64,000 bases of DNA, taken from contig NC_092564.1 of the NCBI RefSeq assembly GCF_037975245.1, positions 11,990,484 to 12,054,483 on the forward strand. Reading direction: 5' to 3'. The translations under genes were made by a program, and so were the position numbers. The notes beneath the pieces were generated by a model, which did no database searches, was not told where the DNA came from, and was given only the letters and a program-made list of their open reading frames with translations. Positions 17,776 to 58,940 of the stretch are shown here, one piece after another (within the stretch, counting starts at the first letter, position 1; every line of letters begins with the position of its first letter). This DNA comes from Apostichopus japonicus (Eukaryota > Echinodermata > Holothuroidea > Aspidochirotida > Stichopodidae).

Positions 17776-18636
<861 letters not shown>

Positions 18637-19466: not shown

Positions 19467-21019
19467 CAGTGTTCGACTTATGGCCAAAAAATTGCATAGC
19501 AACAAATTTCGACAATTGCTATACAATATTTTTGTTGCATAGCAGTTCCCCAATATTGAATAGCAGTTTGAAATTACCACAAAACGGACCAAATGTTGGC
19601 GATCAATGTATTAACTAGAAAATGTTTATTTATTATTATTATTTATACTAGTGTTGCTACGATAATCGTTTTCAATATCGGTATCGGCCGATATTTGCAA
19701 TATCGGCAGCATATCGGTATCGGTAAAATTTTGCCTAATTGCCGATAACAGCACACCGATATTGAACTTTTCTTTTTAACAGCAGAGCTACCTGTACTTA
19801 TTTATACTTGCAATGATTTGTTAATCTGCCCAAGACGATCCATTTCTTTAGCGTCAGTTAAACTCAGATTCATTTTCGATTAATATCCATGGAAACCTGA
19901 CTCTCCGTAACATCTAAAAACACGTCTACGGCGCGCGAATATAACCAATGACCTTCGTGAACCTTGGCCTACACACAGCATTAGTGCAGCATATATACAC
20001 TGTACTAACCATTCATTTCCTCAAAGGCCTCCGTGAAAACCTTGAACATGATGCATACAGTAACTGCACAGTTCACCAGTGTTGGAAAACCTTGTTAAAT
20101 TTCCCGCGAACACACTGCCGATTTCCCGCCGGTGTTCGCCTGCCTAGCACGTGTAACGTGCGAGCATAAAGGCGTGGTGTCCAGGGGCCCGTCTTAGGGC
20201 TATGGTGGGGTCATGGGTAGAACCCCTCGTGGGGATCCTGGGGGCGAAAGCCCCCGAAAATTGTTGTAATTTTTTGCGATGTCTGGCGATGAAAAAATTC
20301 GCAGTTGAGGATGCAAAATACTGACAACTTTTTTTATTTAAATTGTCACGAAACTGATGAAAATTTTAGAATGACAAGTTAAAGTAGCTACATTATGTTA
20401 TAAAATGAAAAGAGATTTAATCGGTCTTTCAATCTTTAAAAAGTGCAACTTACAAAACTTCCGATATTATGAAACAAACAACGTTCAGCAAAGCCCCGTT
20501 TCTAGACTGCCTAACAATGAATAGCGTGCACTATGCGTACATTTTTACAACTGCAGTGTTTAACCCTATACCCAACTACTGTACCACGGTACATGTGCTG
20601 CGAATTTGCCCAGGTACCTTCCCAACAACTGTGAGCTCATCCCCTGTGTAACACCTGTTTGTTAACATTTTTTTGGCACGTTGCCAGGGAACATTTTAGT
20701 TACGTGAGATCCGTAACCGCCGAGGTGGTTAGGCTATTTGCTTTACACTTAACTATGGTAGGATATTATTTTTTCTGGTTTTTTTTTCGCTATACGGTCA
20801 AGTGAATAAGTTGTACATTGAGTATAAACTCAATAAATTATAACTTCTACATTGTGATCGACAGTTCGTAAGTTAAGGTTTGAGTGTTTGCTCCCAAATC
20901 TGACTAGGAATTTGTATCGCACAAATCGGCACAATGTGCGATGCTGATTTGGAAACGTCTCGCAAGTTTGTCGTTTTGGATCGCATTTTGCGATGCGATA
21001 CCGGAAAAATCGAACACTG
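19467..21019. mobile_element. hAT-like element, family E, 1.55 kb, with perfect 8-bp target duplication
   Basis: Ends are CAGTGTTCGA and TCGAACACTG, perfect 10-bp terminal inverted repeats. The flanks are ATCACAGC on both sides (19459-19466 and 21020-21027), an exact 8-bp duplication. The interior holds no transposase frame. It contains a block of TATCGG/CCGATA motifs at 19672-19760, preceded by TAGTGTTGCTACGATA, which looks like the end of a second, nested hAT-type element. It also contains a G-rich block at 20190-20256. It is probably a composite non-autonomous copy. Confidence 0.85.
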
Positions 21020-28065: not shown

Positions 28066-28094
28066 TACCCGTATGGCAAGCCGTTTTACTTTTT

Positions 28095-28397
28095 ATTCGA
28101 TATTTGATGATATCATCAAATATTTGGTGATATCAGCAAATAATTGTTGATATCATCAAATCATTTGATGATATCAACAATTCCAACATATCACTTATTC
28201 ATTTGCTGATATCAACAAATCAATTGGTGATATCAGTAATTGATTTAATGATATCAGCAAATGAACCGTACATATCACTAATGCATGCTTTTGTTGATAT
28301 CACCAATTCATTTGTTGATATCACCAATTCATTTGATGATATCACCAATTCATTTGCTGATATCAGTAATTCAACCGTGACGATGATATCAGTAATT
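28095..28397. repeat. FB1 left arm palindrome array (GATATC core)
   Basis: Twelve GATATC cores flanked by TGN/NCA half-arms and AAT..ATT spacers, with a few decayed cores (CATATC). All four bases occur at the variable arm position. The two halves of a unit are often unmatched, as if half-sites had been shuffled. Confidence 0.93.
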
Positions 28398-28474
28398 CAA
28401 CCGTGACAGCCCGTCTGTCAGTGTACTAAGCAGTACATGCAAATGACAGTGACGAGACAACAGGGTACGGGTAG

Positions 28475-28748
28475 CGTTACTTTCACCTTGGCGATTGCGG
28501 TAAACTTGATGAAGCACAGATCGTTATTGACAGAAGTTCTCGGATTTTGGGGGAAGTAGAGAGGCTCTTAACTGGCAATGAGAATGCTTCTGAAGCGAAA
28601 GAACGTCTTCTCCAAAGCAAAGAGAAATTTAGAACGGATTAACGCGAGCATCGATGAGCACAGGTTCAATTCAATAGCAGCTGTGCACGATCAGCTCCTT
28701 TCCATCGCAGACGCACAGGCACAGCCAGACGGAACGTTGCAGCCATGA
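28475..28748 (+). pseudogene. Broken coding fragment captured inside FB1
   Basis: From 28475 the frame reads RYFHLGDCGKLDEAQ... and continues as an amphipathic, charged helix-like sequence to a stop at 28640. Shifting frame at about 28635 restores an open frame, RINASIDEHRFNS..., to a stop at 28746-28748. The first part has TPR-like spacing (hydrophobic-LG, then G-K-LDEA), but one unit is too little to name a family. There is no start codon, and one frameshift breaks it. It looks like an exon fragment of a host gene picked up by the element. A chance origin is possible but less likely, given the helical composition across both frames. Confidence 0.45.
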
Positions 28749-29125
28749 GCGGCGATCATGGGGGGGGGGACATATTTTAGGTGGGGGATATAGTATCTAA
28801 TATCCCCCTCCCCAATATTTGGTGGCATAGTGTTTTTGTGTGGCTATAAATAGAAAATAATGCATGAGATTATTTATCCAAATCCTATTTGGCGGTGGCT
28901 AAAACTTCATCCAACACATGCGCTATGAGGTAAATGACTCTTCGTCGTCGTTTCTGTGACCTGTGACCGTATAGCATGTTGTCACTCATGATTATTATCA
29001 TAATGTCTGTACATCTCTTGTGTATGAGTGTAAGTACGTACAATCATATATATGATCCACATCGATATGGGTTCACTGGGTCACTGGGTTTCCATTTGGC
29101 CTGTTTCCTACAAGATTTCTAACCG

Positions 29126-29749
29126 CAGGCACGTAGCCAAGTAGGGGGGGGGGGGGTGGGGCGAAGATATTTTTGTCTTTTTTAACGATATCGAAGTTTT
29201 ATATTTATAATATTTGTACACAATAAATTAACTGTGTCTGAATTTTCGAAAATTCCCTGACCAACATTCTTCATCATACTTCCCTCTACTGACCGGTCTG
29301 TTAGGGGTTGAAGGTTTTTTTTCTATATTGGTTGACCATAGATGAAATTTTGTGCAACATTTATGGATATGTTTTGAAGTGAATTTATAATTCAAATTCT
29401 GAACAAATAATGGGCTTCAAACCTTGAAAAGTGGGGCTGACGGGTATTGTATAGGCCGTTACGTAGTATTACCTTCCAAAGCAATGATCCACAGGAGAAG
29501 CGATGAGGTCGAACATGATGTGTGCATGACTGGTGACAATCTTGAAAAAGGTTATGGATAGAAGAAAAAAACTATTGGGAAAACTTGATTCTCAGGCCAA
29601 AGTATACAACTTGTTGATCATTTTCAAGCCCGAGAAGTGCCATTTCCTGTGATCTGGGGGGCTATCAAAACCAGAAATTTTCTGTGGCGCTCCGCTTAGA
29701 TAGTAATTCGATCGCGCCCCCGGGTTAGAAAATCCTGGATACACGCCTG
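29126..29749 (+). mobile_element. hAT-like element, family A copy 2, nested in FB1
   Basis: Left end CAGGCACGTAGCCAAG and right end CTGGATACACGCCTG form imperfect terminal inverted repeats. The right two thirds match 1-464. A run of about 13 G follows the left end. No matching 8-bp flanks were seen (left TCTAACCG, right TATTTATA), so the right flank may have been altered by the adjacent AT expansion. No protein is encoded. Confidence 0.7.
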
Positions 29750-29757
29750 TATTTATA

Positions 29758-29760
29758 TAT

Positions 29761-29842
<82 letters not shown>
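29758..29842. repeat. (AT)n microsatellite with ACAC edges
   Basis: About 70 bp of pure AT bounded by ACACAC on both sides, directly after the nested family A element. Confidence 0.95.
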
Positions 29843-29843
<1 letters not shown>

Positions 29844-30367
29844 AAATAACGAAGTGCGCGAACAATTTTAATTTGGGGTGGGGGAATTGTTACGCGTCTG
29901 CACCCAAGTTAAAGTCCCCCCACCCCAATATTTGAAACAAATCTCCCGCCACTGGTTGCAGCCACCATCGGGGAGCCAGTCTAATGGACACAGTTCCCAG
30001 CCTGTTTCTGTCGCCGACCAGGGTATACTTTTTACATTTTGGTATTTCATATTGAACTACTTAACCACCCCGATATTATTTTTCATAGGTTTATAGGCCT
30101 GGCCTACTCGTTGCTTGCCCAACGTTTGTCGTCCCTGTCACGAGTGCATGAGTAGCCACGGTACCTCTCCCAGTGGCAGTAGTAGTACTGTGTAACTTAG
30201 TCCCCTTTCCCCTCCCGTTGATCGCTATAACCAAGGCTGAAATTAACCGCGCACCAGGCGCCTTTCTGTGCCCGCTACCAGTCAAACAGCGCCCTTAAGA
30301 CCCAAAAAGAATGCCTGTTGATGGCGCTCGTTTCTAATTCCTTTTTGTAGACGTTGGTTCGATACGC

Positions 30368-30884
30368 TTGAATTACTGATATCAGCAAATGAATTGGTGA
30401 TATCAGCAAATGAATTGTTGATATCAGCAATTCCAACATATCGCCAATTCAATTGCTGATATCAGCAAATCTTTTAATGATATCACCAAATCATTTCATG
30501 ATATCAGCAATTCGGTTCCTCATATCACTAATTAATTAGTGATATGTCGGAATTGTTGATATCAGCAAATGATTTGCTGATATCATCAATTCAATTGCTG
30601 ATATCACCAATTCATTTGCTGACATCAGCAAATATTTGTTGATATCAGCTATTATTTATTGATATCAGCAATTATTTGGTGATATCACCAAATGAATTGG
30701 TGATATCAGCAAATGAATTGCTGATATCAGCAAATGAATTGCTGATATCAACAATTATTTGCTGATATCAGCAAATAATTGTTGATATCAGCAATTATTT
30801 GATGATATCATCAAATGATTTGATGATATCAACAATTATTTGCTGATATCACCAAATATTTGATGATATCATCAAATATCGAAT
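30368..30884. repeat. FB1 right arm palindrome array (GATATC core)
   Basis: Twenty-one GATATC cores with the same unit design as the left arm. Units such as TTGCTGATATCAGCAA are complete 16-bp palindromes. The array is about 200 bp longer than the left arm, so the arms have expanded unequally while the outer 105 bp stayed identical. Confidence 0.93.
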
Positions 30885-31057
30885 AAAAAGTAAAACGGCT
30901 TGCCATATACCCGAGGATCTGTTCGATGCGAACCTAGTATCAATCGAAAGCACATTACCGCGGGCGTTCTCTTGGCAATACAGCAAATAGATACGGGAAA
31001 ATAGCTTCGTGAAAATGAGAGATACACTACTAGGCTGTTTCCTACTAGGGTCTTAAC

Positions 31058-31465
31058 CATAGGCGTATGAGGCGGGGGCGTGGGGCTACAGCCTCCCCCC
31101 CCCCCCGCCCAAAAATGTTTGTGAAAATTGGGGCAATATGCTGAGAATTTTTGGGGCACCTACTGAAAGAAAAATAATTTGCAATATGTGTTTCAATGGT
31201 TAAACTGATATTATTATTATTATCATTATTATTGTAACGACTTCCCCAATAATTATAACCAATATGGAAGGGTAATGACACGATAATGATTGTATGTTAT
31301 TGGCATGTGATATAATAACCGATAAATGCCTATATGATATGCACATTAAGATGTTGAAAGCGCGGGGAAAGCGAGGGGAGCGCGAAAAATTGTGGTTATA
31401 TTTTTCGGGCAAGTCGTTACAGCCCCCCTCCCCCCCCCCAATCAAATTAGGCTCCTACGCCTATG
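31058..31465. mobile_element. hAT-like MITE, family F, with perfect 8-bp target duplication
   Basis: A 408-bp element with ends CATAGGCGTATGAGG and GCTCCTACGCCTATG. Exact 8-bp repeats GTCTTAAC flank it at 31050-31057 and 31466-31473. Both subterminal regions carry C-runs (31087-31108 and 31424-31439). The interior includes an ATT tract and no transposase. Its terminus differs from families A-E, but it has the same 8-bp signature. It lies between FB1 and FB2. Confidence 0.87.
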
Positions 31466-31473
31466 GTCTTAAC

Positions 31474-32820
31474 ACGACTAGGCAAACGCGCATGTTAGGG
31501 CGCAAACGAAGACGAGACTCTGCCATGTATGTTAAACAATTATAGAAGAAACGGAATCTGTTTGTTTATGATATTTATTTATTTTGGTTCTATGCAAGTC
31601 TCATCATAGTTATAGTTTTTTGTGATGCGGTATCCCGTAATTATGTGTTATCTGGTTTTATTGGCGTTCCATAGCAAATAAGTTCATTTCAAAGATGAAT
31701 TTATTTTAGAAAGAAAAAACTTAATTCTTTGCAGACGACAACATCATTTTGAAAAACGTTTATAGGAAAACAGTAGCAATGACTTTAGTTTTAGACAACA
31801 ACAGAGTCGATCCTTTTTGGCGTTTCCATAGAAATACTGGCTGCTTGTTCTATACATTTCTAATTATAGATATTAATATGTTACAATTAAATTTTCAATG
31901 ATAAGTCGAGTCGATAATATCGGAATAAATCATGTTTGAAAGGATCTTGCTTTGCAAAACCAAACGATTTGATGATTTCAGAAAATTGTGTGATCAATGA
32001 TAATGATATAAATAACATAAGAAGAAATTTCGAGAGGAGTTTTAGTAAGCTTCTATCTCAAAAATGCTTGTCTAAGACGTTTTAGAACCAAAGTGTCGAT
32101 GTAGGGTGGTCGGGTGAGGGTGGGTGGGAGTAAGTGGTGAGGTTATACTACGTACATGACCGTTTAAGGGTAGCTGTTTAAGATTATATCCGTTTCGTAT
32201 AGAAACGATAACTCGGTTTCAAACTGATGTTAGTCAAATATGTAGTCAGCGTAGTACAGGCTGTATACCAGCAATGAACGCCCATCGACGTTTGAGGGTA
32301 CAGATATTCTGTCAAATATGGGTAGTATAGTAAAGCGGCCTATATAGCAAACAACACTCTGCCTCCGGGGTTAGCACAGTAAAATAATGTATGCCTCTAT
32401 ATACATATATTATCCATAACAGTATACGTGCGGTATACCCTATAGAGTTCTGTACCGTCTGAAGGAGCACTATATAATACTTGATAATGAAAGTGTGAGA
32501 ACGTCCTGTGACTCATGGTTCTCAGATTGTTCAGGGAGTATGTACAGTTATACTCAGGAAGCTCATGGGCATTCCCCTGTCAGTCTGCACTATAACCATA
32601 TACACCCTGTTGGGACAATTCGGTAACGGTAGTTAACACGACAAACGGTATGCAAAAGCCATGCAGAATAGTTAGTAGCTGGTCTAGCGTATATAGTAAT
32701 GACGTTACTCGTATTAATGTTGCATTGTATGATCTTGGCTAGCCATGATATTTATCACTGTGTAGGAAATACCATTAACGTTTAACTTTACTCCAGTTCA
32801 TTTGTCCGGTCCAATATTTA
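31474..32820. other. No gene recognised
   Basis: AT-rich sequence. The segment about 32590-32680 is imperfectly inverted-repeated at about 35385-35480, on the other side of FB2. Confidence 0.45.
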
Positions 32821-33052
32821 AATAAATATCGTATGGCAGCCATAATGCATGAACGATACTTAGACAGCAGATATACGTATACCTTCATATATACACTTAA
32901 CCTACTGCTCATAAGTTATACTCACTCTCACATGATCCTACCCAAGAATACGGCCAAAGACAACCATTTAAATCGGCAGGAAAGTAAATAATTCAAGCAG
33001 AATGGAAGAATACAGCTCCGTGTTGCATTCTCTGCTAATGTGTTCGCAAATA
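32821..33052 (+). repeat. Dispersed duplicate, copy 2 (partner at 26815-27043)
   Basis: Direct-orientation partner of 26815-27043, with scattered substitutions and a short insertion near 32870. No termini were recognised. Confidence 0.8.
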
Positions 33053-33351
33053 ATAGAAAGGATTCAAAATTTATGCAACTGTACTGCTAATCGTTATTGA
33101 TACGACTCATACGACAGCATATGTTTAGAAAACAAGTATATCCTACCCTTGTTGAACTGAAATCTTCTCGAAGTCAGGTAAGCCCCTTCTTTGCTGATGT
33201 TTTATAAATCTTTTTAAAGTTTCGCACGTTAGCTTTCGTCGTCGTATGAGTTTCTGCAGGATCCGCGGCGTTAATTGAATGACCTGGTACGGGTATTATT
33301 GTACAGTTGTGCGGCCATATGGCAAGCCGTTTTAACATTTACCTCTCTATT

Positions 33352-33805
33352 CTACTTAAGTAGAATTAATTCCACTTAAGTAGAATACAATTAAGCTTAA
33401 GTAAAATGAATTGCACTTAAGTAGAATTGCATTTTACTTAAGTTTAATTGTATTCCACTTAAGTAAAATTACCACTTTCTTTTAAGCTTAAGTTAAATTC
33501 AATTTCACTTAAGCTTAAATGTATTCTACTTAAGTAAAATACAATTCTACTTAAGTAAAATTTAATTTAGCTTAAGTAAAAGTGTCATTCTTTTTCACTT
33601 AAGCTAAATTGCATTTTACTTAAGTAAAATTGTATTTTACTTAAGTAGAATACAATTAAGCTTAAGTGAAATTGAATTTAACTTAAGCTAAATTGTATTC
33701 TACTTAAGTAGAATTGTATTTTACTTAAGTATAATACAATTGCATTTTACTTAAGTAAAATTCAATTCTACTTAAGTAAAATACAATTTAGCTTAAGTGG
33801 AATTG
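33352..33805. repeat. FB2 left arm palindrome array (CTTAAG core)
   Basis: Twenty-one CTTAAG cores with arms such as TTCTA/TAGAA, TTTTA/TAAAA, TTTAG/CTAAA and TTCCA/TGGAA, joined by short A/T spacers. Many units are complete 16- to 18-bp palindromes. Confidence 0.93.
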
Positions 33806-33810
33806 AAGGA

Positions 33811-33833
33811 TATGGCAAGCCGTTATAACATTT
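33811..33833 (+). repeat. Internal copy of the FB terminus
   Basis: TATGGCAAGCCGTTATAACA at 33811 repeats the FB2 left terminus with one change in its first 18 bp, at the inner edge of the left array and in the same orientation. It is either the end of an older element into which the array was placed or a by-product of array duplication. Confidence 0.85.
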
Positions 33834-34041
33834 TCCTCGTGCGGAGAAGTGGTTGGTCTGGGGGCAATGTTTACATGCATGGTATGGAACGCGAAAAGGG
33901 CAAACTTATTTCGTTGCTGAGTTTAACATAAGTTAGACAACGACGTAAGTTTAGACAACGGAATTTTAGACATCAACGTGAGTTTGAGCAACAGCATGGT
34001 AAAACAGCAGCAACAATTTTAGTTTAGGCACGTTCCATAGC

Positions 34042-34320
34042 ATGGTACCATGCCTTGTGATACTTCTACTACTAGTACCACTGATTAATGGTATGTCGTG
34101 TTGTAGTCGTTACCTTGCCCTCAAAAGTGCTTTTCCAACTGCATCAGCAACAGTTTGCAACGATTTATTGGCTGGCTGCATTTACCAATGTCTAACGTTC
34201 AGACTCAGTGATAAACATAGCTTTGCTTCATTTGCTAAGTATGGTGTTATGTTCGTATATACACAACGAAAGCTGGATAAGTATCGCAGAATGGGGGAAT
34301 GGCCGCAAATGGTTACGTAA
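34042..34320 (+). CDS. Possible small open frame inside FB2 (92 aa), uncertain
   Basis: The frame begins MVPCLVILLLLVPLING, which resembles a secretion signal, followed by a Cys-containing stretch (MSCCSR, later CNDLLAGCIYQC) and a basic tail. It lies between the two palindrome arrays with no competing longer frame. I know no family it belongs to, and no splice sites or polyadenylation signal tie it to a transcript. The hydrophobic start comes from a T/A-rich run and may be chance. It is reported only because it is the sole frame with protein-like features in the element. Confidence 0.15.
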   Translation: MVPCLVILLLLVPLINGMSCCSRYLALKSAFPTASATVCNDLLAGCIYQCLTFRLSDKHSFASFAKYGVMFVYTQRKLDKYRRMGEWPQMVT

Positions 34321-34375
34321 CTAGTACGTCTTGAACGTAACTCTATAGGTCTCGCATCACAATTAATTGTTCTAT

Positions 34376-34803
34376 TGACTTACACACTAAACTCATCACT
34401 TTCAAGACCTGCCAAAACATAGATAGAAGTTTTCATCTGGTATATCCTACCCACCACATGATAGCTGTGTTTTTGGCCTATCATGGCACTTGCAAACTTT
34501 CATATCATGACCGTTTAGATTATGAGCTAGAAGAGGAGCAAGTTTATCACACTGAACCCTTCCATATGCTCGTTCGGAGTAATATCAACATTTAACCAAA
34601 GATTTTTTAAAATGGTTTATATCACCTTCGATCCTCCCTATTTTCACACCATCTGTACTTAAAATTATGCTCTTTCACATAAAGGCAGAAAAAACTATGA
34701 CAGTAAATGATAACATGCTTAAGGAAGCTTTACGTTAGGTACTTTTACCTCTTTTCTGACAATGGTAAACCTATTGAGCGGATGAACACGTGGTGAGGCA
34801 CCT
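34376..34803 (+). repeat. Dispersed repeat related to 52434-52915 (diverged copy)
   Basis: Shares GACTTACACACTAAA, ATAGAAGTTTTCA, GATAGCTG, TCATGGCAC, CATGACCGT and GAGCGGATG in the same order as 52470-52880. The termini are worn, the right one reading GGTGAGGCACCTAAA. Confidence 0.7.
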
Positions 34804-34867
34804 AAAATAGTATACAGAGTCGGACTTCGCGGCAAGTACAGTAACGCAATGAGTAGCATATACTGAT

Positions 34868-35310
34868 TGACCAATCACATTTTACTTAAGCTAAATTGCA
34901 TTTTACTTAAGTGAAATAGATTGACCAATCACATTTCACTTAAGCGTAATTCTATTTCACTTAAGTAAAATGCAATTTAGCTTAAGTGAAATTGAAAAGC
35001 CATTTTGCATAAGTAGAATAGCATTTTACTTAAGTAGAATTGAATTTTACTTAAGCAGAATTGCATTCTACTTAAGTAGAATTGAATTTTACTTAAGCAG
35101 AATTGTATTTTACTTAAGTAGAATTGTATTTTACTTAAGTAAAATACGATGTAGACAAAAACCGTTTGAACTTAAGCTAATATGAATTCCACTTAAGTGG
35201 AATACAATAAAGCTTAAGTAAAATGCAATTCTACTTAAGTGCAATTCATTTCACTTAAGCTTAATTGTATTCTACTTAAGTGGAATTAATTCTACTTAAG
35301 TAGAATAGAG
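34868..35310. repeat. FB2 right arm palindrome array (CTTAAG core)
   Basis: Eighteen CTTAAG cores plus one decayed core (CATAAG). The inner edge has a direct repeat GATTGACCAATCACATTT (about 34865-34882 and 34918-34936). Confidence 0.93.
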
Positions 35311-35343
35311 AGGTAAATGTTAAAACGGCTTGCCATACGGCCA

Positions 35344-42294: not shown

Positions 42295-45200
42295 CTCATG
42301 GCAATAGGCTAGTGGCTGGTGACTAGTGGTCGTTGGATGGTGCCATATTTTATTTTCCTTAAAGCACTCAACAAAATATATAGTAAATTATATGGCAATA
42401 CAAAAACACATACTTTGTTACTCTTTTGCTCGTGCAAAAAGGCTGGTGACTTGTAGCTGGTGGTCGGTTGCAGCTGGAGCTTGATGATGGTGGTATTTGG
42501 TAGTTGGTGGCTGGAGCAGTCTGGAGAAAGGTGGCTGGTGGTGCTGGTGGTCAAGGAAGATAGAGCTTGTCGATAGTGGAAGGTGGTAGGTGGTTGGGTA
42601 CGTCTGAAATATCTATAAAATAAAAACTAGAAACAAACAATCAGACATTTCTTTAAAAAATGATGCAATATTTGTTTAAACTCTTCAAATCAGCATAAAA
42701 ATATATAGTTAAATCATTGCAATACAAACACAAGTACGGTATTACTCTTTTGCTCGTGGCAAAAGGCTGGAGGAAGGCAGCTGGTGGAAGGTAATATGTG
42801 GTTGGCGGTATAGGTGACTGGGTACGTCTGAAATATCTATAAAATATAAACTAGAAACAAACAATCAGGCATTTCTTTAAGAAATGATGCAATATTTTTT
42901 TTTAAACTCTTCAACGTAGCATTAAAATACATAGTAAAATCATTGCATTACAAACACACATTCGTTATTACTCTTTTGCTCGTGGCAAAAGGCAGGGGGA
43001 ATGTAGCTGGTGGAAGGTGGATGGCGGTATTGGTGGTTGGGTACGTCTGAAACATCTATAAAATATAAACTAGAAACAAATAATCAGGCATTTCTTTAAA
43101 AAAAAATGATGCTATATTTTGTTATAAACTATTCAAATCAGCATAAAAATATATAGTTTAATCATCGCAATACAAACAAACATACGTTATTACTCTTTTG
43201 CTCGTGGCAAAAGGCTGGAGGAAGGCAGCTGGTGACTGGTGGAAGATGGATGGCGGTATTGGTGGTTGGGTTCGTCTGAAACATCTATAAAATATAAACT
43301 AGAAACAAACCATCAGACATTTCTTTACAAAATGATGCAATATTTGTTTAAACTCTTCAAATCAGCATAAAAATATATAGTTAAATCATTGCAATACAAA
43401 CACAAGTACAGTATTACTCTTTTGCTCATGGCAAAAGGCTGGAGGAAGGCAGCTGGTAGAAGGTAGTATGTGGTTGGCGGTATTGGTGACTGGGTACGTC
43501 TGAAATATCTATAAAATATAAACTAGAAACAAACAATCAGGCATTTCTTTAAAAAATGATGCAATATTTTTTTTTAAACTCTTCAAATTAGCATAAAAAT
43601 ACATAGTAAAATCATTGCATTACAAACACACATTCGTTATTACTCTTTTGCTCGTGGCAAAAGGCAGGGGGAATGTAGCTGGTGGAAGGTGGATGGCGGT
43701 ATTGGTGGTTGGGTACGTCTGAAACATCTATAAAATATAAACTAGAAACAAATAATCAGGCATTTCTTTAAAAAAAAATGATGCTATATTTTGTTATAAA
43801 CTATTCAAATCAGCATAAAAATATATAGTTTAATCATCGCAATACAAACGAACATACGTTATTACTCCTTTGCTCGTGGCAAAAGGCTGTGGGAAGGTAG
43901 CTGGTGACTGGTGGAAGATGGATGGCGGTATTGGTGGTTGGGTACGTCTGAAACATCTATAAAATATAAACTAGAAACAAACAATCAGACATTTCTTTAC
44001 AAAATGATGCAATATTTGTTTAAACTCTTCAAATCAGCATAAAAATATATAGTTTAATCATTGCAATACAAACACAAGTACGGTATTACTCTTTTGCTCG
44101 TGGCAAAAGGCTGGAGGAAGGCAGCTGGTGGAAGGAAGTATGTGGTTGGCGGTATAGGTGACTGGGTACGTCTGAAATATCTATAAAATATAAACTAGAA
44201 ACAAACAATCAGACAATTCTTTACAAAATGATGCAATATTTGTTTAAACTATTCAAATCAGCATAAAAATATATAGTTTAATCATCGCAATACAAACGAA
44301 CATACGTTATTACTCTTTTGCTCGTGGCAAAAGGCTGGTGGAAGGTAGCTGGTGACTGGTGGAAGATGGATGGAGGTATTGGTGGTTGGGTTCGTCTGAA
44401 ACATCTGTAAAATATAAACTAGAAACAAATAATCAGGCATTTCTTTTAAAAAAAATGATGCAATATTTTGTTATAAACTATTCAAATCAGCATAAAAATA
44501 TATAGTTAAATCATTGCAATACAAACACAAGTACGGTATTACTCTTTTGCTCGTGGCAAAAGGCTGGAGGAAGGCAGCTGGTGGAAGGTAGTATGTTGTT
44601 GGCGGTATAGGTGACTGGGTACGTCTGAAATATCTATAAAATATAAACTAGAAACAAACAATCAGGCATTTCTTTACAAAATGATGCAATATTTTTTTTA
44701 AACTCTTCAAATCAGCATAAAAATACATAGTAAATTCGTTGCAATACAAACACACATTCGTTATTACTCTTTTGCTCGTGGCAAAAGGCTGGGGGAATGT
44801 AACTGGTGGAAGGTAGTATGTGGTTGGCGGTATAGGTGACTGGGTACGTCTGAAATATCTATAAAATATAAACTAGAAACAAACAATCAGGCATTTCTTT
44901 AAAAAATGATGCAATATTTTTTTTTAAACTCTTCAAATTAGCATAAAAATACATAGTAAAATCATTGCATTACAAACACACATTCGTTATTACTCTTTTG
45001 CTCGTGGCAAAAGGCAGGGGGAATGTAGCTGGTGGAAGGTGGATGGCGGTATTGGTGGTTGGGTACGTCTGAAACATCTATAAAATATAAACTAGAAACA
45101 AATAATCAGGCATTTCTTTAAAAAAAAATGATGCTATATTTTGTTATAAACTATTCAAATCAGCATAAAAATATATAGTTTAATCATCGCAATACAAACG

Positions 45201-48200
45201 AACATACGTTATTACTCTTTTGCTCGTGGCAAAAGGCAGGGGGAAGGTATCTGGTGACTGGTGGAAGATGGATGGCGGTATTGGTGGTTGGGTACGTCTG
45301 AAACATCTATAAAATATAAACTAGAAACAAACAATCAGACATTTCTTTACAAACTGATGCAATATTTGTTTAAACTCTTCAAATCAGCATAAAAATATAT
45401 AGTTTAATCATTGCAATACAAACACAAGTACGGTATTACTCTTTTGCTCGTGGCAAAAGGCTGGAGGAAGGCAGCTGGTGGAAGGAAGTATGTGGTTGGC
45501 GGTATAGGTGACTGGGTACGTCTGAAATATCTATAAAATATAAACTAGAAACAAACAATCAGACAATTCTTAACAAAATGATGCAATATTTGTTTAAACT
45601 ATTCAAATCAGCATAAAAATATATAGTTTAATCATCGCAATACAAACGAACATACGTTAATACTCTTTTGCTCGTGGCAAAAGGCTGTGGGAAGGTAGCT
45701 GGTGACTGGTGGAAGATGGATGGCTGTATTGGTGGTTGGGTTCGTCTGAAACATCTATAAAATATAAACTAGAAACAAACAATCAGACATTTCTTTACAA
45801 AATGATGCAATATTTGTTTAAACTCTTCAAATCAGCATAAAAATATATAGTTAAATCATTGCAATACAAACACAAGTACGGTATTACTCTTTTGCTCGTG
45901 GCAAAAGGCTGGAGGAAGGCAGCTGGTGGAAGGTAGTATGTTGTTGGCGGTATAGGTGACTGGGTACGTCTGAAATATCTATACAATATAAACTAGAAAC
46001 AAACAATCAGGCATTTCTTTACAAAATGATGCAATATTTTTTTTAAACTCTTCAAATCAGCATAAAAATACATAGTAAATTCATTGCATTACAAACACAC
46101 ATTCGTTATTACTCTTTTGCTCGTGGCAAAAGGCTGGGGGAATGTAGCTGGTGACTGGTGGAAGGTGGATGGCGGTATTGGTGGTTGGGTTCGTCTGAAA
46201 CATCTGTAAAATATAAACTAGAAACAAATAATCAGGCATTTCTTTTAAAAAAAATGATGCAATATTTTGTTATAAACTATTCAAATCAGCATAAAAATAT
46301 ATAGTTAAATCATTGCAATACAAACACAAGTACGGTATTACTCTTTTGCTCGTGGCAAAAGGCTGGAGGAAGGCAGCTGGTGGAAGGTAGTATGTGGTTG
46401 GCGGTATAGGTGACTGGGTACGTCTGAAACATCTATAAAATATAAACTAGAAACAAACAATCAGGCATTTCTTTAAAAAATGATGCAATATTTTTTTTTG
46501 AACTCTTCAAATTAGCATAAAAATACATAGTAAAATCATTGCATTACAAACACACATTCGTTATTACTCTTTTGCTCGTGGCAAAAGGCAGGGGGAATGT
46601 AGCTGGTGGAAGGTGGATGGCGGTATTGGTGGTTGGGTACGTCTGAAACATCTATAAAATATAAACTAGAAACAAATAATCAGGCATTTCTTTAAAAAAG
46701 ATGATGCTATATTTTGTTATAAACTATTCAAATCAGCATAAAAATATATAGTTTAATCATCGCAATACAAACGAACATACGTTAATACTCTTTTGCTCGT
46801 GGCAAAAGGCTGTGGGAAGGTAGCTGGTGACTGGTGGAAGATGGATGGCGGTATTGGTGGTTGGTTACGTCTGAAACATCTATAAAATATAAACTAGAAA
46901 CAAACAATCAGACATTTCTTTACAAAATGATGCAATATTTGTTTAAACTCTTCAAATCAGCATAAAAATATATAGTTAAATCATTGCAATACAAACACAA
47001 GTACGGTATTACTCTTTTGCTCGTGGCAAAAGGCTGGAGGAAGGCAGCTGGTGGAAGGTAGTATGTGGTTGGCGGTATAGGTGACTGGGTACGTCTGAAA
47101 TATCTATAAAATATAAACTAGAAACAAACAATCAGGCATTTCTTTACAAAATGATGCAATATTTTTTCTCCAAATCAGCATAAAAATACATAGTAAATTC
47201 GTTGCATTACAAACACACATTCGTTATTACTCTTTTGCTCGTGGCAAAAGGCTGGGGGAATGTAGCTGGTGATTGGTGGAAGGTGGATGGCGGTATTGGT
47301 GGTTGGGTACGTCTGAAACATCTGTAAAATAAAAACTAGAAACAAATAATCAGGCATTTCTTTAAAAAAAATGATGCAATATTTTGTTATAAACTATTCA
47401 AATCAGCATAAAAATATATAGTTTAATCATCGCAATACAAACAAACATACGTTATTACTCTTTTGCTCGTGGCAAAAGGCTGTGGGAAGGTAGCTGGTGA
47501 CTGGTGGAAGGTGGATGGCGGTATTGGTGGTTGGGTACGTCTGAAACATCTATAAAATATAAACTAGAAACAAATAATCAGGCACTTCTTTAAAAAAATG
47601 ATGCAATATTTTGTTATAAACTATTCAAATCAGCATAAAATCATATAGTTTAATCATCGCAATACAAACAAACATACGTTATTACTCTTTTGCTCGTGGC
47701 AAAAGGCTGTGGGAATGTAGCTGGTGACTGGTGGATGGCGGTATTGGTGGTTGGGTACGTCTGAAACATCTATAAAATATAAACTAGAAACAAACAATCA
47801 GACATTTCTTTACAAAATGATGCAATATTTGTTTAAACTCTTCAAATCAGCATAAAAATATATAGTTAAATCATTGCAATACAAACACAAGTACGGTATT
47901 ACTCTTTTGCTCGTGGCAAAAGGCTGTGGGAAGGTAGCTGGTGACTGGTGGAAGGTGGATGGCGGTATTGGTGGTTGGGTACGTCTGAAACATCTATAAA
48001 ATATAAACTAGAAACAAATAATCAGGCACTTCTTTAAAAAAATGATGCAATATTTTGTTATAAACTATTCAAATCAGCATAAAATCATATAGTTTAATCA
48101 TCGCAATACAAACAAACATACGTTATTACTCTTTTGCTCGTGGCAAAAGGCTGTGGGAATGTAGCTGGTGACTGGTGGATGGCGGTATTGGTGGTTGGGT

Positions 48201-49262
48201 ACGTCTGAAACATCTATAAAATATAAACTAGAAACAAACAATCAGACATTTCTTTACAAAATGATGCAATATTTGTTTAAACTCTTCAAATCAGCATAAA
48301 AATATATAGTTAAATCATTGCAATACAAACACAAGTACGGTATTACTCTTTTGCTCGTGGCAAAAGGCTGGAGGAAGGCAGCTGGTGGAAGGTAGTATGT
48401 GGTTGGCGGTATAGGTGACTGGGTACGTCTGAAATATCTATAAAATATAAACTAGAAACAAACAATCAGGCATTTCTTTACAAAATGATGCAATATTTTT
48501 TCTCCAAATCAGCATAAAAATACATAGTAAATTCGTTGCATTACAAACACACATTCGTTATTACTCTTTTGCTCGTGGCAAAAGGCTGGGGGAATGTAGC
48601 TGGTGATTGGTGGAAGGTGGATGGCGGTATTGGTGGTTGGGTACGTCTGAAACATCTGTAAAATAAAAACTAGAAACAAATAATCAGGCATTTCTTTAAA
48701 AAAAAATGATGCTATATTTTGTTATAAACTATTCAAATCAGCATAAAAATATATAGTTTAATCATCGCAATACAAACAAACATACGTTATTACTCTTTTG
48801 CTCGTGGCAAAAGGCTGTGGGAAGGTAGCTGGTGACTGGTGGAAGATGGATGGCGGTATTGGTGGTTGGGTACGTCTGAAACATCTATAAAATATAAACT
48901 AGAAACAAACAATCAGACATTTCTTTACAAAATGATGCAATATTTGTTTAAACTCTTCAAATCAGCATAAAAATATATAGTTAAATCATTGCAATACAAA
49001 CACAAGTACGTTATCACTCTTTTGCTCGTGGCAAAAGGCTGGGGGAAGGTAGCTGGTGGAAAGTGGTATATGGTAATTGGTGGATGGATACGTCTGGAAC
49101 ATCTATAAAATATAAACTAGAGAGGAACAATCAGGCATTTCTTTAAAAAAAATGATGCAATATTTTTTTTTATACTCTTCAAATCAGCATAAAAATACAT
49201 AGTTATACCATTGCAAAACAAACACACGTACGTTATTACTCTTTTGCTCGTGGCAAAAGGCT
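42295..49262. repeat. ~224-bp satellite, about 30 monomers, with higher-order repeats
   Basis: The anchor TGCTCGTGGCAAAAGGC recurs at 30 positions from 42753 to 49247, average spacing 224 bp (range about 214-234), with two decayed anchors before. Each monomer has a GGTGG-rich third (AGCTGGTGGAAGGT...) and an AT-rich two thirds (ATATAAACTAGAAACAAA, AATCAGGCATTTCTTT, AAATCAGCATAAAAAT). Monomer subtypes recur in multiples: a monomer with a shared deletion at 47163 recurs at 48497, 1334 bp (six monomers) away. The pair 47480-47900 is repeated at 47930-48350. Minus-strand frames inside are repeated copies of the satellite, not genes. Confidence 0.97.
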
Positions 49263-49895
49263 GGGGGATGATGGGAAACCTGTAGCACCTACAATATAGT
49301 GACAGAAATGAGCAATCAAGCTTTTCAAAATGATACCACTACTACACTGTTCTTTGTTGTTCTTCTGTTTATTTCATAACCTGGTTCCTAATGTTCTCCC
49401 GTCGATCTGTCGTCTTGGCCCTCGTCCGCATAACCGCATTGTCATCGTTCTAGAAGCAAAACAGTAGAATTGTACGTTAAGTTTCTCCTTAATTTTGTTT
49501 CGAGTATACCCTAAATTTAAATTGCAATAGTCGTAATAATGCTGGTTGCTAAAGTTAGGGAAATCCTTGTAGGTTTCCTGATGTCAGCAGACGTATCCAA
49601 GAAAGAAAGTCCCATAAAATAAGAAACGTTATAGAACGTACCGCCAAAAAACTTTTCTTACAAAATTACTAACAATTGTCACTTATTGCAACATTTGGAA
49701 ACATAAAGACAACTTATGTTTACATCAGAAACTCATCATTTCCACAATTTGCAGCAAAAATTGATGATGTAAATTCAACATAGGCCTATTCAACAACATG
49801 TTTGATTACGCTTCCATCAGAATGCTATCAGTTCAACATTTTTCAGTAATTATCCAGTAAAGGATCTTAACATTTTGACGGCACCTTTATGTGTT
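49263..49895. other. No gene recognised
   Basis: Unique-looking sequence after the satellite. No coding, RNA or TE-end signature apart from the following element. Confidence 0.45.
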
Positions 49896-56137: not shown

Positions 56138-56899
56138 GAGTCCCTGATCTTACCCGTATCTAATCACCCCTTACTATACAGAAACAGAACCCATGGTATG
56201 AAGCCTCAACTAACTGAAAAAGGAAGAAATGTATACCAATGCACAGCCTGAAGTTCTCGGATGACCTCCTCATTCATTACCTAGCGCAAATCATTCTATC
56301 AATATTGTTATTTTCATTGCTCATTAAAACAATTGAATACATACCGCACCTATCTATTTGGCTACCGTAAATTAGACCTATCCAAACTGTTGCTGGGGCC
56401 ATTTATCACTATTAGTTTGCTTTTTTTGTGGATTGCCAGCAACAAAACTAAAAAAAGTGTGTACCCTTAGTTTACTACTATTTATCTATCAAAAAGTTAC
56501 GTACAGTAATGGATAAGAGCAATTTATCACAAAGTAGCGATGCAATTATTTCAAGTGCAGCAGATCCCTTGGTTTGTAGAAAAATTGTGTACAACTATCA
56601 TGTATAGCAAAGTCGTGAACTAGTTGCTCGCACATAACACACGCTATGATTACACAGTAGGCCTATAGGGTACGCAGAACTGAGATACGGATTGGAATTT
56701 TGGACACCTGGGAACTTTGCGGTAACAGTGCCCAGATCCTGTTTATAGCTAAGGATGAGAATGCAACAATAAAGGAATGATTCTGTTGTCGCTAGGACAG
56801 AGGGCGGCATTGCTTTTATTTTTAAATCGGGGAATACGGGGGCAATACGGGAGACAAGATTAGCAGAGAGAATACCATTAAATGGGTCACACATTCTTT
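56138..56899. other. No gene recognised
   Basis: Central part of FB3. A 98-codon minus-strand frame (56598-56894) overlaps the array edge and has no recognisable domain. Confidence 0.45.
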
Positions 56900-58940
56900 G
56901 GACCAGGCAAGATGCATGAACTTACTCTTCTACAATGTCCATAGAGTTAATGTTACCCATCGGTTTGGTAATCCAAGGCGTGCTGCATGGATTGGGGCCC
57001 AAACCTTTTTGTGGTCCCGTTACACTCATTAAAGAAGTCATGATTTAGTGGTCATTTAAATTGGTCAAGCACTCTTTGGACCGGGCAAGACGCATTATGG
57101 TACTCTACTAAATTGTCTTAAGAGTTTATATGACCCATTGGTCAATTGGTCCAAGGCGTTGTGATCTTAATTTGGGCCAAAATGCTTTTTATTCGTGATC
57201 CTGTAACAGTAATTTAAGAAGTGATGATGTAGTAGTCATTTAAATTGGTCAAGCATTCTTCAGACCGGGCAAGAAGCATTATAGTACTCTTCTACATCGT
57301 CATATGACCCATTGATTAGTTGGTTCAAGGCGTTCTGGTTTTGATTAGGGCCCAAAGGCTTTTTATTCGCTGTCCTATTACATTCATTTAAGAAGTGATA
57401 ATGTTGTGGTCATTTAAATTGGTCAAGCATTCTTTGGACGGGGCAAGACACATTATAGTACTCTTCTACAATGTCCTTAGAGTTCATGTTACCCATTGGT
57501 TAGGTGATCCAAGGCGTGCTGCAGGGATTAATGCCCAAAGCTTTTTCGTGGTCCCGTTACACTCATTAAAGAAGTCATGATTTAGTGGTCAATTAAATTG
57601 GTGAAGCACTCTTTGGACTGGCCAAGATGCATTACAGTATTGGACACTTCTCCATTGTCTCAAAAGTTCATGTGGCCCATTGGTTAGGTGGTCCAAGGCG
57701 TTCTGGTCTTGATTAGGGCCTAAACTTTTTTGTAGTCCCGTTACATTAATTTAAGAAGTGATGATGTAGTGGTCATTTAATTGGTCAAGCATTCTTTGGA
57801 CAGAGCAAGACGCATTGTGGTACTCTTTTAGTCCTTAGAGTTCATGTTAACTATCGGTTTGGTGATCCAAGGCTTGCTGCATGGACTAGGGCCTAAACTT
57901 TTTCTTAGTCCTGTTACACTCATTAAAGAAGTAATGACTTAGTGGTCATTTAAATTGGTCTGAAAGCACTCTTCGGACCGGGCAAGGCGCATTATGGTAC
58001 ACTTCTACAATGTCTTAAGAGTTCATATGACCCATTGGTTAGGTGGTCCAAGGCGTTCTGGTCTTAATTAGGGCTTAAACTTATTCGTAGTCCCATTACA
58101 TTAATTTAAGAAGTGATGATGTAGTAGTCATTTCAAATGGCCAAGCATATTTTGGACCGGGCAAAACACATGAAGGTACTCTTCTACCATGTCCTTAGAG
58201 TTCATGTTTACCATCGGTTTGGTGATCCAAGGCGTGCTGCATGGATTAGGGCCCAAAGCTTTTTCATGGTCCTGTTACTCTCATTAAAGAAGTAATGATC
58301 GAAGTGGTCAATTAAATTGGTCAAGCACTCTTTTGACGGGGCAAGACGCATTGTGGTACTCTTCTACATTGTCTTAAGAGTTCATATGGCCCATTGGTTA
58401 GGTGGTCCAAGGCCATCTGGTTTTGATTAGGGCCCAAATGCTTTTTATTCGTGATCCTGTTACATTAACTTAAGAAGTAATAATGTAGTGGTCAAACTGG
58501 TCAAACATTATTTGGACCGGACAAGACTCATTATAGTACACTTCTACAATGTCCTTACAGTTCATGTTAACCATCGGTTTGGTGATCCAAGGCGTACTGC
58601 ATGGATTAAGGCCTAAAGTTTTTCGTGGCCCCGTTACATCCATCTAATAAGTGATGATGTATTGGTCAGTTGAATTGGTCAAGCACTCTTTGGACCGGGA
58701 AAGACACATTATGGTGCTCTTCTACATTGTCTTAAGAGTTCATATGACCCTTTGGTTAGGTGATCCAATGCGTTCTGGTTTTGATTAAGGCCCAAAGTTT
58801 TTCATGTCCCTGTTACATCCATCTAATTAGTGATGGTGTATTGGTCATGTGAATTGGTCAAGCACTGTTTGGACCGGGGAAGACGCATGATGGTTATTTT
58901 CTTCATCATCTTCAGAGTTCATATGACCCATTGATAAAAC
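56900..58940 (+). repeat. FB3 right arm: about eleven ~180-bp monomers
   Basis: Monomers run TTGGTCAAGCA(C/T)TCTTTGGACC, GGGCAAGACGCATTATGGTA, TTAGAGTTCAT(A/G)T, CCCATTGGTTAGGTG, TCCAAGGCGT, GGGCCCAAA and TCCTGTTACA. Two alternating forms differ at the VNTR-like positions, GTTACCATCGG versus ATGACCCATTGG, suggesting a two-monomer (~360 bp) higher-order unit. Confidence 0.88.

Follow-up and report, generated by a model that had tools for sequence, protein, structure and literature searches.

The IS3EU superfamily is recognised by its TA..TA tips, by target duplications which are usually 6 bp long and by the absence of an HHCC motif (accessible part of PMC10045372), and in fungi its tips read TAYGG..CCRTA (PMC12730594, excerpted text). 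Duplications of 6 bp are also given for Polinton/Maverick elements (same part of PMC10045372). As far as the available text of PMC3573991 goes, Galileo belongs to the P superfamily, makes 7-bp duplications and has repetitive inverted arms, many copies without transposase, and arms which are chimeric or rebuilt. Here we describe two foldback elements, FB1 and FB2, from a stretch of 64,000 nucleotides of the genome of Apostichopus japonicus (contig NC_092564.1, positions 11,990,484 to 12,054,483), the whole of which is called the window below. All four of their ends carry one and the same 17-bp tip, TATGGCAAGCCGTTTTA, and their flanking duplications, TACCCG and CGGCCA, are exact, as a first-pass annotation of the window had stated. 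The same tip bounds a 22.7-kb element which contains a transposase gene. By their tips, the length of their duplications and the type of this transposase, FB1 and FB2 fit the description of foldback-armed, non-autonomous IS3EU-type elements. Their anatomy in the window is the following:

28066..28071, no strand: left 6-bp target duplication of FB1, TACCCG, an exact match with the right copy
28072..30907, no strand: FB1, 2836-bp non-autonomous element with GATATC arms (tips, and interior identity to L038, L043 and L059)
28072..28088, forward strand: left 17-bp tip of FB1, TATGGCAAGCCGTTTTA, exact
28100..28407, forward strand: left arm of FB1, GATATC palindromes at steps of about 20-21 bp
28505..28639, forward strand: open stretch of 45 codons in FB1, possible first-exon remnant, conserved in the GATATC family
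30369..30878, reverse strand: right arm of FB1, GATATC palindromes
30891..30907, reverse strand: right-end 17-bp tip of FB1, exact
30908..30913, no strand: right 6-bp target duplication of FB1, TACCCG, exact
33312..33317, no strand: left 6-bp target duplication of FB2, CGGCCA, exact
33318..35337, no strand: FB2, 2020-bp non-autonomous element with CTTAAG arms (tips, and interior identity to 13 loci)
33318..33334, forward strand: left 17-bp tip of FB2, exact
33349..33807, forward strand: left arm of FB2, CTTAAG palindromes, the outer part resembling the right end of the 22.7-kb element
33811..33827, forward strand: inner (fossil) tip of FB2, one mismatch, with the same junction in 13 relatives
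33878..34040, no strand: 163-bp insertion private to FB2 (comparison with L041)
34878..35306, reverse strand: right arm of FB2, CTTAAG palindromes, resembling the left end of the 22.7-kb element
35321..35337, reverse strand: right-end 17-bp tip of FB2, exact
35338..35343, no strand: right 6-bp target duplication of FB2, CGGCCA, exact

There are 34 GATATC cores in FB1 and 40 CTTAAG cores in FB2, mostly spaced by 20-21 bp. The perfect terminal inverted match extends over 105 bp in FB1 and 85 bp in FB2 (range 17-186 bp over the 33 elements defined below).

We searched both strands of 671.6 Mb of genome (35 contigs) for exact matches of the 17-bp tip. It is present in 571 copies, 276 forward and 295 reverse, while the reversed pattern, taken as a control, gave 0 forward and 0 reverse matches. 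Hence, we rejected a chance origin of the tip matches. Three exact matches in viral contigs were taken as chance; no palindrome arms are present in the approximately 140 bp viewed around each. The pair counts rest on the first 100 of the 571 places plus the window: 31 pairs of facing tips less than 15 kb apart, together with FB1 and FB2, form a sample of 33 paired elements. Thus the genome search for inverted pairs suggested by the first-pass annotation did bring many further copies, and sorting arms by palindrome core, as it had also suggested, gives 9 GATATC and 24 CTTAAG elements. FB1, FB2, the 31 pairs and the 22.7-kb element all have tips TATGG...CCATA, which within the sample is a matter of definition, since the pairs were chosen by the 17-bp tip. 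Three pairs of neighbouring tips in -/+ orientation lie 10-19 bp apart among the first 100 listed places. In two clusters, L065 (C1:11140800-11147900) and L066 (C2:18659400-18665400), several elements of the group stand end to end, some of them 10-19 bp apart.

An exact 6-bp flanking duplication is found in 27 of the 33 paired elements (8 of the 9 GATATC and 19 of the 24 CTTAAG elements). One pair, L044, has a duplication of exactly 5 bp; none has one of 4, 7 or 8 bp, and none is longer than 6 bp. As a null, we paired each left flank with the right flank of the next element: 2 matches in 33 were obtained, both due to L054-L056, three copies with identical flanks, by reason of which the 27 duplications represent 25 distinct sites. 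Among these 25, position 2 is a G in 21 and position 5 is a C in 20, and the profile symmetrised over both strands shows a target preference N-G-N-N-C-N. These numbers bear out the initial description: the elements are mobile, have a terminus in common, duplicate 6 bp of the target and carry inverted arms made of repeats.

The first-pass annotation had advised looking for a long member with a transposase or integrase gene, and the 22.7-kb element (G000:C1:12260970-12283636), which is CTTAAG-armed, has the same tips and bears CGGCCG on both flanks, provides an integrase-type transposase. It was read in three pieces, and 6 of its open reading frames of at least 100 residues were submitted to Pfam; two more frames of at least 100 residues stand outside this set, one of which is a translated tandem repeat (L068 5016-5321). 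Pfam reported the rva_4 integrase core (E-value 3.1e-75), the helix-turn-helix (HTH) domain HTH_7 (3e-5) and HECT (1.4e-11); a zinc domain was not reported by Pfam in the transposase. The nearest full protein is P0215, of 520 residues, annotated from Apostichopus japonicus. Five collinear genomic pieces match it at 95.7-97.5% without any stop, covering residues 1-23, 22-121, 120-200, 200-262 and 257-520, and GT/AG splice signals fit exons 3-5. The catalytic residues D254, D311 and E346 of P0215 have the spacing D-56-D-34-E (DD34E) and fall in conserved columns of an alignment of 30 proteins. For a sibling protein, P0107, the fold was predicted with a local distance difference test score (pLDDT) of 79 and a template-modelling score (pTM) of 0.63; searched with Foldseek, this model retrieved TnsB, retroviral integrases, IstA and MuA, with 39 matches at E<=0.001. 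We concluded that the 22.7-kb element encodes a near-complete transposase gene, predicted to combine an HTH domain with a DD34E core of integrase type.

Two other features of the 22.7-kb element can be noted. The HECT ubiquitin-ligase domain gene (L068:3027-4112, forward strand) lies inside it on the strand opposite to the transposase. Besides, 35 residues encoded on the reverse strand of the window (19467-19571) are 97% identical to a reading frame that precedes an exon in L069; this is a dispersed repeat which is also present in a non-coding part of the 22.7-kb element.

In its interior, FB2 shares 92-97% identity with 13 other loci, which are mostly about 1.9 kb long. Its right arm and inner flank align with 0.9 kb at the left end of the 22.7-kb element (88.5% and 85.8% identity), and the outer part of its left arm (the first ~424 bp) aligns with the right end (88.8%). 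Because both ends of FB2 match the ends of that element, FB2 is a deletion derivative or a close cousin of the 22.7-kb lineage. An exon remnant of 36 residues, 94-100% identical to P0107, which is a second transposase of Apostichopus japonicus, persists in shorter CTTAAG copies such as L052, L057 and L060.

Two features of FB2 had escaped the first-pass annotation, the inner tip and the 163-bp insertion. In FB2 and its 13 relatives, a second, mutated tip stands directly inside the left arm. TCGGTCG precedes this inner tip in L053-L056 and in L046/L047, and these 7 bp are lost in FB2 and nine relatives; the CGGTCG before the inner tip conforms to N-G-N-N-C-N. The fossil tip may thus record that an element inserted next to an arm already present and that the composite was then moved by its outermost tips. 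That arms are swapped or rebuilt had been proposed at the outset: the two arm classes on one tip and the fossil inner tip agree with it in part, and the route of rebuilding is what we infer. We rejected L046/L047 as one-armed elements, since an outer array, together with a damaged outer tip, came to light further upstream. Similarly, the right ends of L039 and L061, both of which have no arm and continue with the identical sequence AGCAGCATTTTGCGT directly after TTAA, were rejected as proof that the tip alone suffices; they look like the result of a later insertion of a transposable element at TTAA. An element with the end AGCAGCATTTTGCGT has seemingly inserted there at the TTAA of the tip (TTTTAA) or of a CTTAAG core, so that TTAA-targeting transposons may use CTTAAG arms as landing pads.

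FB1 belongs to another family. Its interior is 98.6% identical to L059, 96.2% to L043 and 94.1% to L038, three elements of 3.14 kb, and it aligns with both ends of the 9.1-kb L035 (94.9% and 97.8%), about 6 kb being absent between them. By these alignments, FB1 and its 3.1-kb family are internal deletions of 9-kb elements. FB1 gave no match with the 22.7-kb element, in a comparison where FB2 matched. The 45-codon stretch of FB1, which is intact in L034, L035, L037, L043 and L059 and broken in L038, occupies the place of the 5' exons in the 22.7-kb element and is possibly a first-exon remnant; compared with the listed transposases, its best E-value is 0.18, which is not significant. No transposase was detected by Pfam in 7 + 9 open frames of L034, L035 and L037 (the second batch included one frame of the window). 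We rejected the only strong Pfam match in the 9-kb GATATC elements as a candidate, since it is the reverse transcriptase of a retroelement inside L034: a frame of 961 residues with endonuclease and reverse transcriptase domains (L034:4167-7049, forward strand), within this 9.45-kb element.

Three further loci, L070-L072, were selected for their GATATC arms and stand outside the sample of 33 pairs. L070 (C2:10822329, 1156 bp) and L071 (1443 bp) consist almost wholly of palindromes, and in L070 the cores TTCGAA, ATGACGTCAT and ATGTACAT are interspersed with GATATC units. Their 6-bp duplications are exact, CGCAAC for L070 and CGCACG for L071. For L072, a partner tip was not found within 10 kb with up to 4 mismatches allowed.

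We consider it very likely that both FB1 and FB2 belong to one IS3EU-type group as non-autonomous members with internal deletions, served by a transposase acting in trans and having binding arrays for arms. According to this reading, the transposase of long elements such as the 22.7-kb copy, with its N-terminal HTH domain and DD34E core, would act in trans, recognise the 17-bp tip TATGGCAAGCCGTTTTA and cut there. In the arms, dimeric binding sites for a protein would have multiplied into hypertrophied arrays along one face of the helix, the palindromes being bound by the HTH domain of the transposase itself or by a partner protein. The two ends would be synapsed before insertion, then joined to the target with a 6-bp stagger and a preference for N-G-N-N-C-N. 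The same transposase or a sibling would mobilise both arm classes, and GATATC and CTTAAG elements would be two lineages in which the palindrome, and perhaps the binding domain, changed while tip, register and stagger were kept.

Several observations must be set against this. Six of the 33 pairs (L040, L044, L046, L047, L051 and L064) have no exact 6-bp duplication, the ends of L046/L047 being inner ones. The junction between exons 1 and 2 of the transposase gene was left unplaced, the Foldseek matches of P0107 are confined to the core (query template-modelling score 0.15-0.29), and a sequence-profile search of PDB gave 0 matches. The assignment to IS3EU is made on features and not on a tree with the Repbase IS3EU proteins. 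A GATATC-armed element with a transposase was not found, either in the frames of the 9-kb elements or through 120 listed transposase homologues, 0 of which matched FB1, the 9-kb elements or L070-L072.

The last point bears on the most serious alternative, namely that FB1 and FB2 were moved by two different transposases and owe their common 17-bp tip to ancestry and not to cross-mobilisation, to which we give a little less than an even chance. No remnant of the transposase of the CTTAAG lineage was found in GATATC elements, and the conserved 45-codon stretch of FB1, at the position of exon 1, differs from both P0215 and P0107. However, the tip is identical, the stagger is the same 6 bp, and a second transposase has not been seen. 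This alternative would agree with trans-mobilisation within one group if the second transposase were a sibling of the first.

The arms raise a separate question. The first-pass annotation had called them unrelated; the cores do differ, but register, spacing and the outer TT...AA positions are common to both types. In both classes, measured from the tip, the palindrome centres fall at 40, 60, 80/81 and 101 bp (a count which includes duplicate ends), and the units of both share TT at -8/-7 and AA at +7/+8. When distinct ends only are counted, 67 of 74 could be classed and 7 could not, and the centre of the first core stands at 40 bp in 18 of 19 GATATC ends and in 41 of 48 CTTAAG ends. What is unusual about these elements is that two different arrays keep a common register. 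Judged by its spacing, this register suggests phased binding sites whose sequence was exchanged. The view that the terminus alone defines mobility is not upheld: arms of both classes hold a fixed register to the tip, and the arm-less ends of L039 and L061 look secondary.

It could be argued that the arms have no function and are satellite-like arrays inside transposon ends, lengthened and made uniform by slippage and gene conversion. The length of the arms and the number of units do differ between copies and between ends, and such arm dynamics are described for Galileo (PMC3573991, in the available text). Yet two different arrays keep the same position of the first core and the same step of 20-21 bp, and the cores and the positions of the half-sites are conserved while position +-5 drifts; we regard functionless arms as doubtful. 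Somewhat less probable still, in our opinion, is a hairpin or cruciform device whose palindromes are maintained by fold-back or replication slippage and not by protein binding. Every unit is near-palindromic, and the arms are inverted repeats. At +-5, the most variable position, pairing in GATATC arms is at chance level in FB1 (9/32 versus 8.5 expected), L034 (11/46 versus 13.0) and L059 (12/48 versus 13.8), so that perfect hairpins are not kept there; L070 and L071 are borderline (p 0.052 and 0.041). A fixed register to the tip is moreover what phased binding predicts. In the main GATATC elements, +-5 does not covary. To a selected hairpin we prefer, though not decisively, a symmetric protein site that recurs with every second turn of the helix. 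Three facts weaken this preference: position +-5 of CTTAAG arms is weakly paired beyond chance (shuffled sequences) in 5 of 6 members (p 0.003-0.044), which leaves some room for hairpins; the ends within a family are related, so that the shared register amounts in effect to one comparison of two lineages; and the phase alone would match by chance about once in 20.

If the arms are indeed such binding sites, a bolder scheme can be proposed, which we put forward as possible but tentative. The palindrome arrays would be phased docking arrays for the HTH domain of the transposase itself, and the arm classes would record a natural change of DNA-binding specificity within one lineage (half-sites TTGNTGATATC of GATATC type versus ATTNNACTTAAG of CTTAAG type). 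Meanwhile catalytic tip, register (40/60/81/101 bp) and 6-bp stagger would have remained unchanged, which would amount to two codes in one natural system, a tip and an address. A copy would gain new arms by landing next to an arm of a second copy; once the outermost tips had moved the two together, an inner tip would be left as a fossil, along with a half-duplication.

When compared with the described systems, the group is closest to IS3EU, and the idea of an undescribed system does not hold, as tips, duplication length and transposase type agree with this published superfamily. The termini are TA..TA (TATGG..CCATA); the target duplication is 6 bp long in the pairs counted above and in CGGCCG, CGCAAC and CGCACG; the transposase is a DDE enzyme of IS3/IS481-like kind with an HTH domain and with no zinc domain among its Pfam matches; and terminal inverted repeats over 30 bp, stated for TET+ fungal IS3EU, are matched by the 105 bp of FB1 and the 85 bp of FB2. 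The elements depart from IS3EU as described by arms made of palindromes every 20-21 bp, by their foldback shape, by the existence of two arm types and by the companion HECT gene. In the part of the open-licence literature covered, neither arms built as palindrome arrays nor a HECT gene turned up in any account of IS3EU; IS3EU combined with foldback brought an unrelated match only, and the letters of the tip unrelated matches only. What was known is thus an IS3EU-type group, and what we found no description of is its palindrome-array arms of two types and its HECT gene.

Galileo and Foldback (FB) of Drosophila, as far as the available descriptions go, share with our elements long, internally repetitive inverted arms, many copies without transposase and chimeric or rebuilt arms; the likeness is one of arm architecture only, the transposase being here of integrase type with 6-bp duplications and not of P type with 7-bp ones. 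The ends of Tn7 and IS21 carry several phased transposase sites each. The core fold of P0107 resembles their TnsB and IstA, but these systems are bacterial, with few sites per end and no palindrome arrays; this is a likeness of mechanism, not membership. Finally, a derivation from Polinton/Maverick, which would account for the 6-bp duplications and for a member over 20 kb with an integrase-like gene, is extremely improbable, as the tips are TATGG and not the AG..CT of Polintons, and the 6 frames tested with Pfam gave convincingly only rva_4/rve, HTH_7 and HECT, with no DNA polymerase B (PolB), capsid, ATPase or protease.

Elsewhere in the window, tandem repeats occupy 42589-49268 (a satellite-like unit of 224 bp, about 30 copies, 86% matches), 56878-58933 (a unit of 179 bp, about 11.5 copies, 75% matches) and 17801-18594 (the 9-bp repeat ATCATCATG, about 88 copies, where long frames on both strands are translations of the repeat).

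To our knowledge, the enzyme of a foldback element is seldom known. In this group, two copies with palindrome arms can be traced, through their tips, arms and 6-bp duplications, to a long element with a near-complete transposase gene, so that the origin and the use of foldback arms become directly testable. What deserves further study is the register which the two different arrays have in common. Should the arms prove to be phased binding arrays, the two arm classes would constitute a natural experiment on the change of a recognition code without change of the catalytic site, and the group may yield a transposase whose address sequence is separable.

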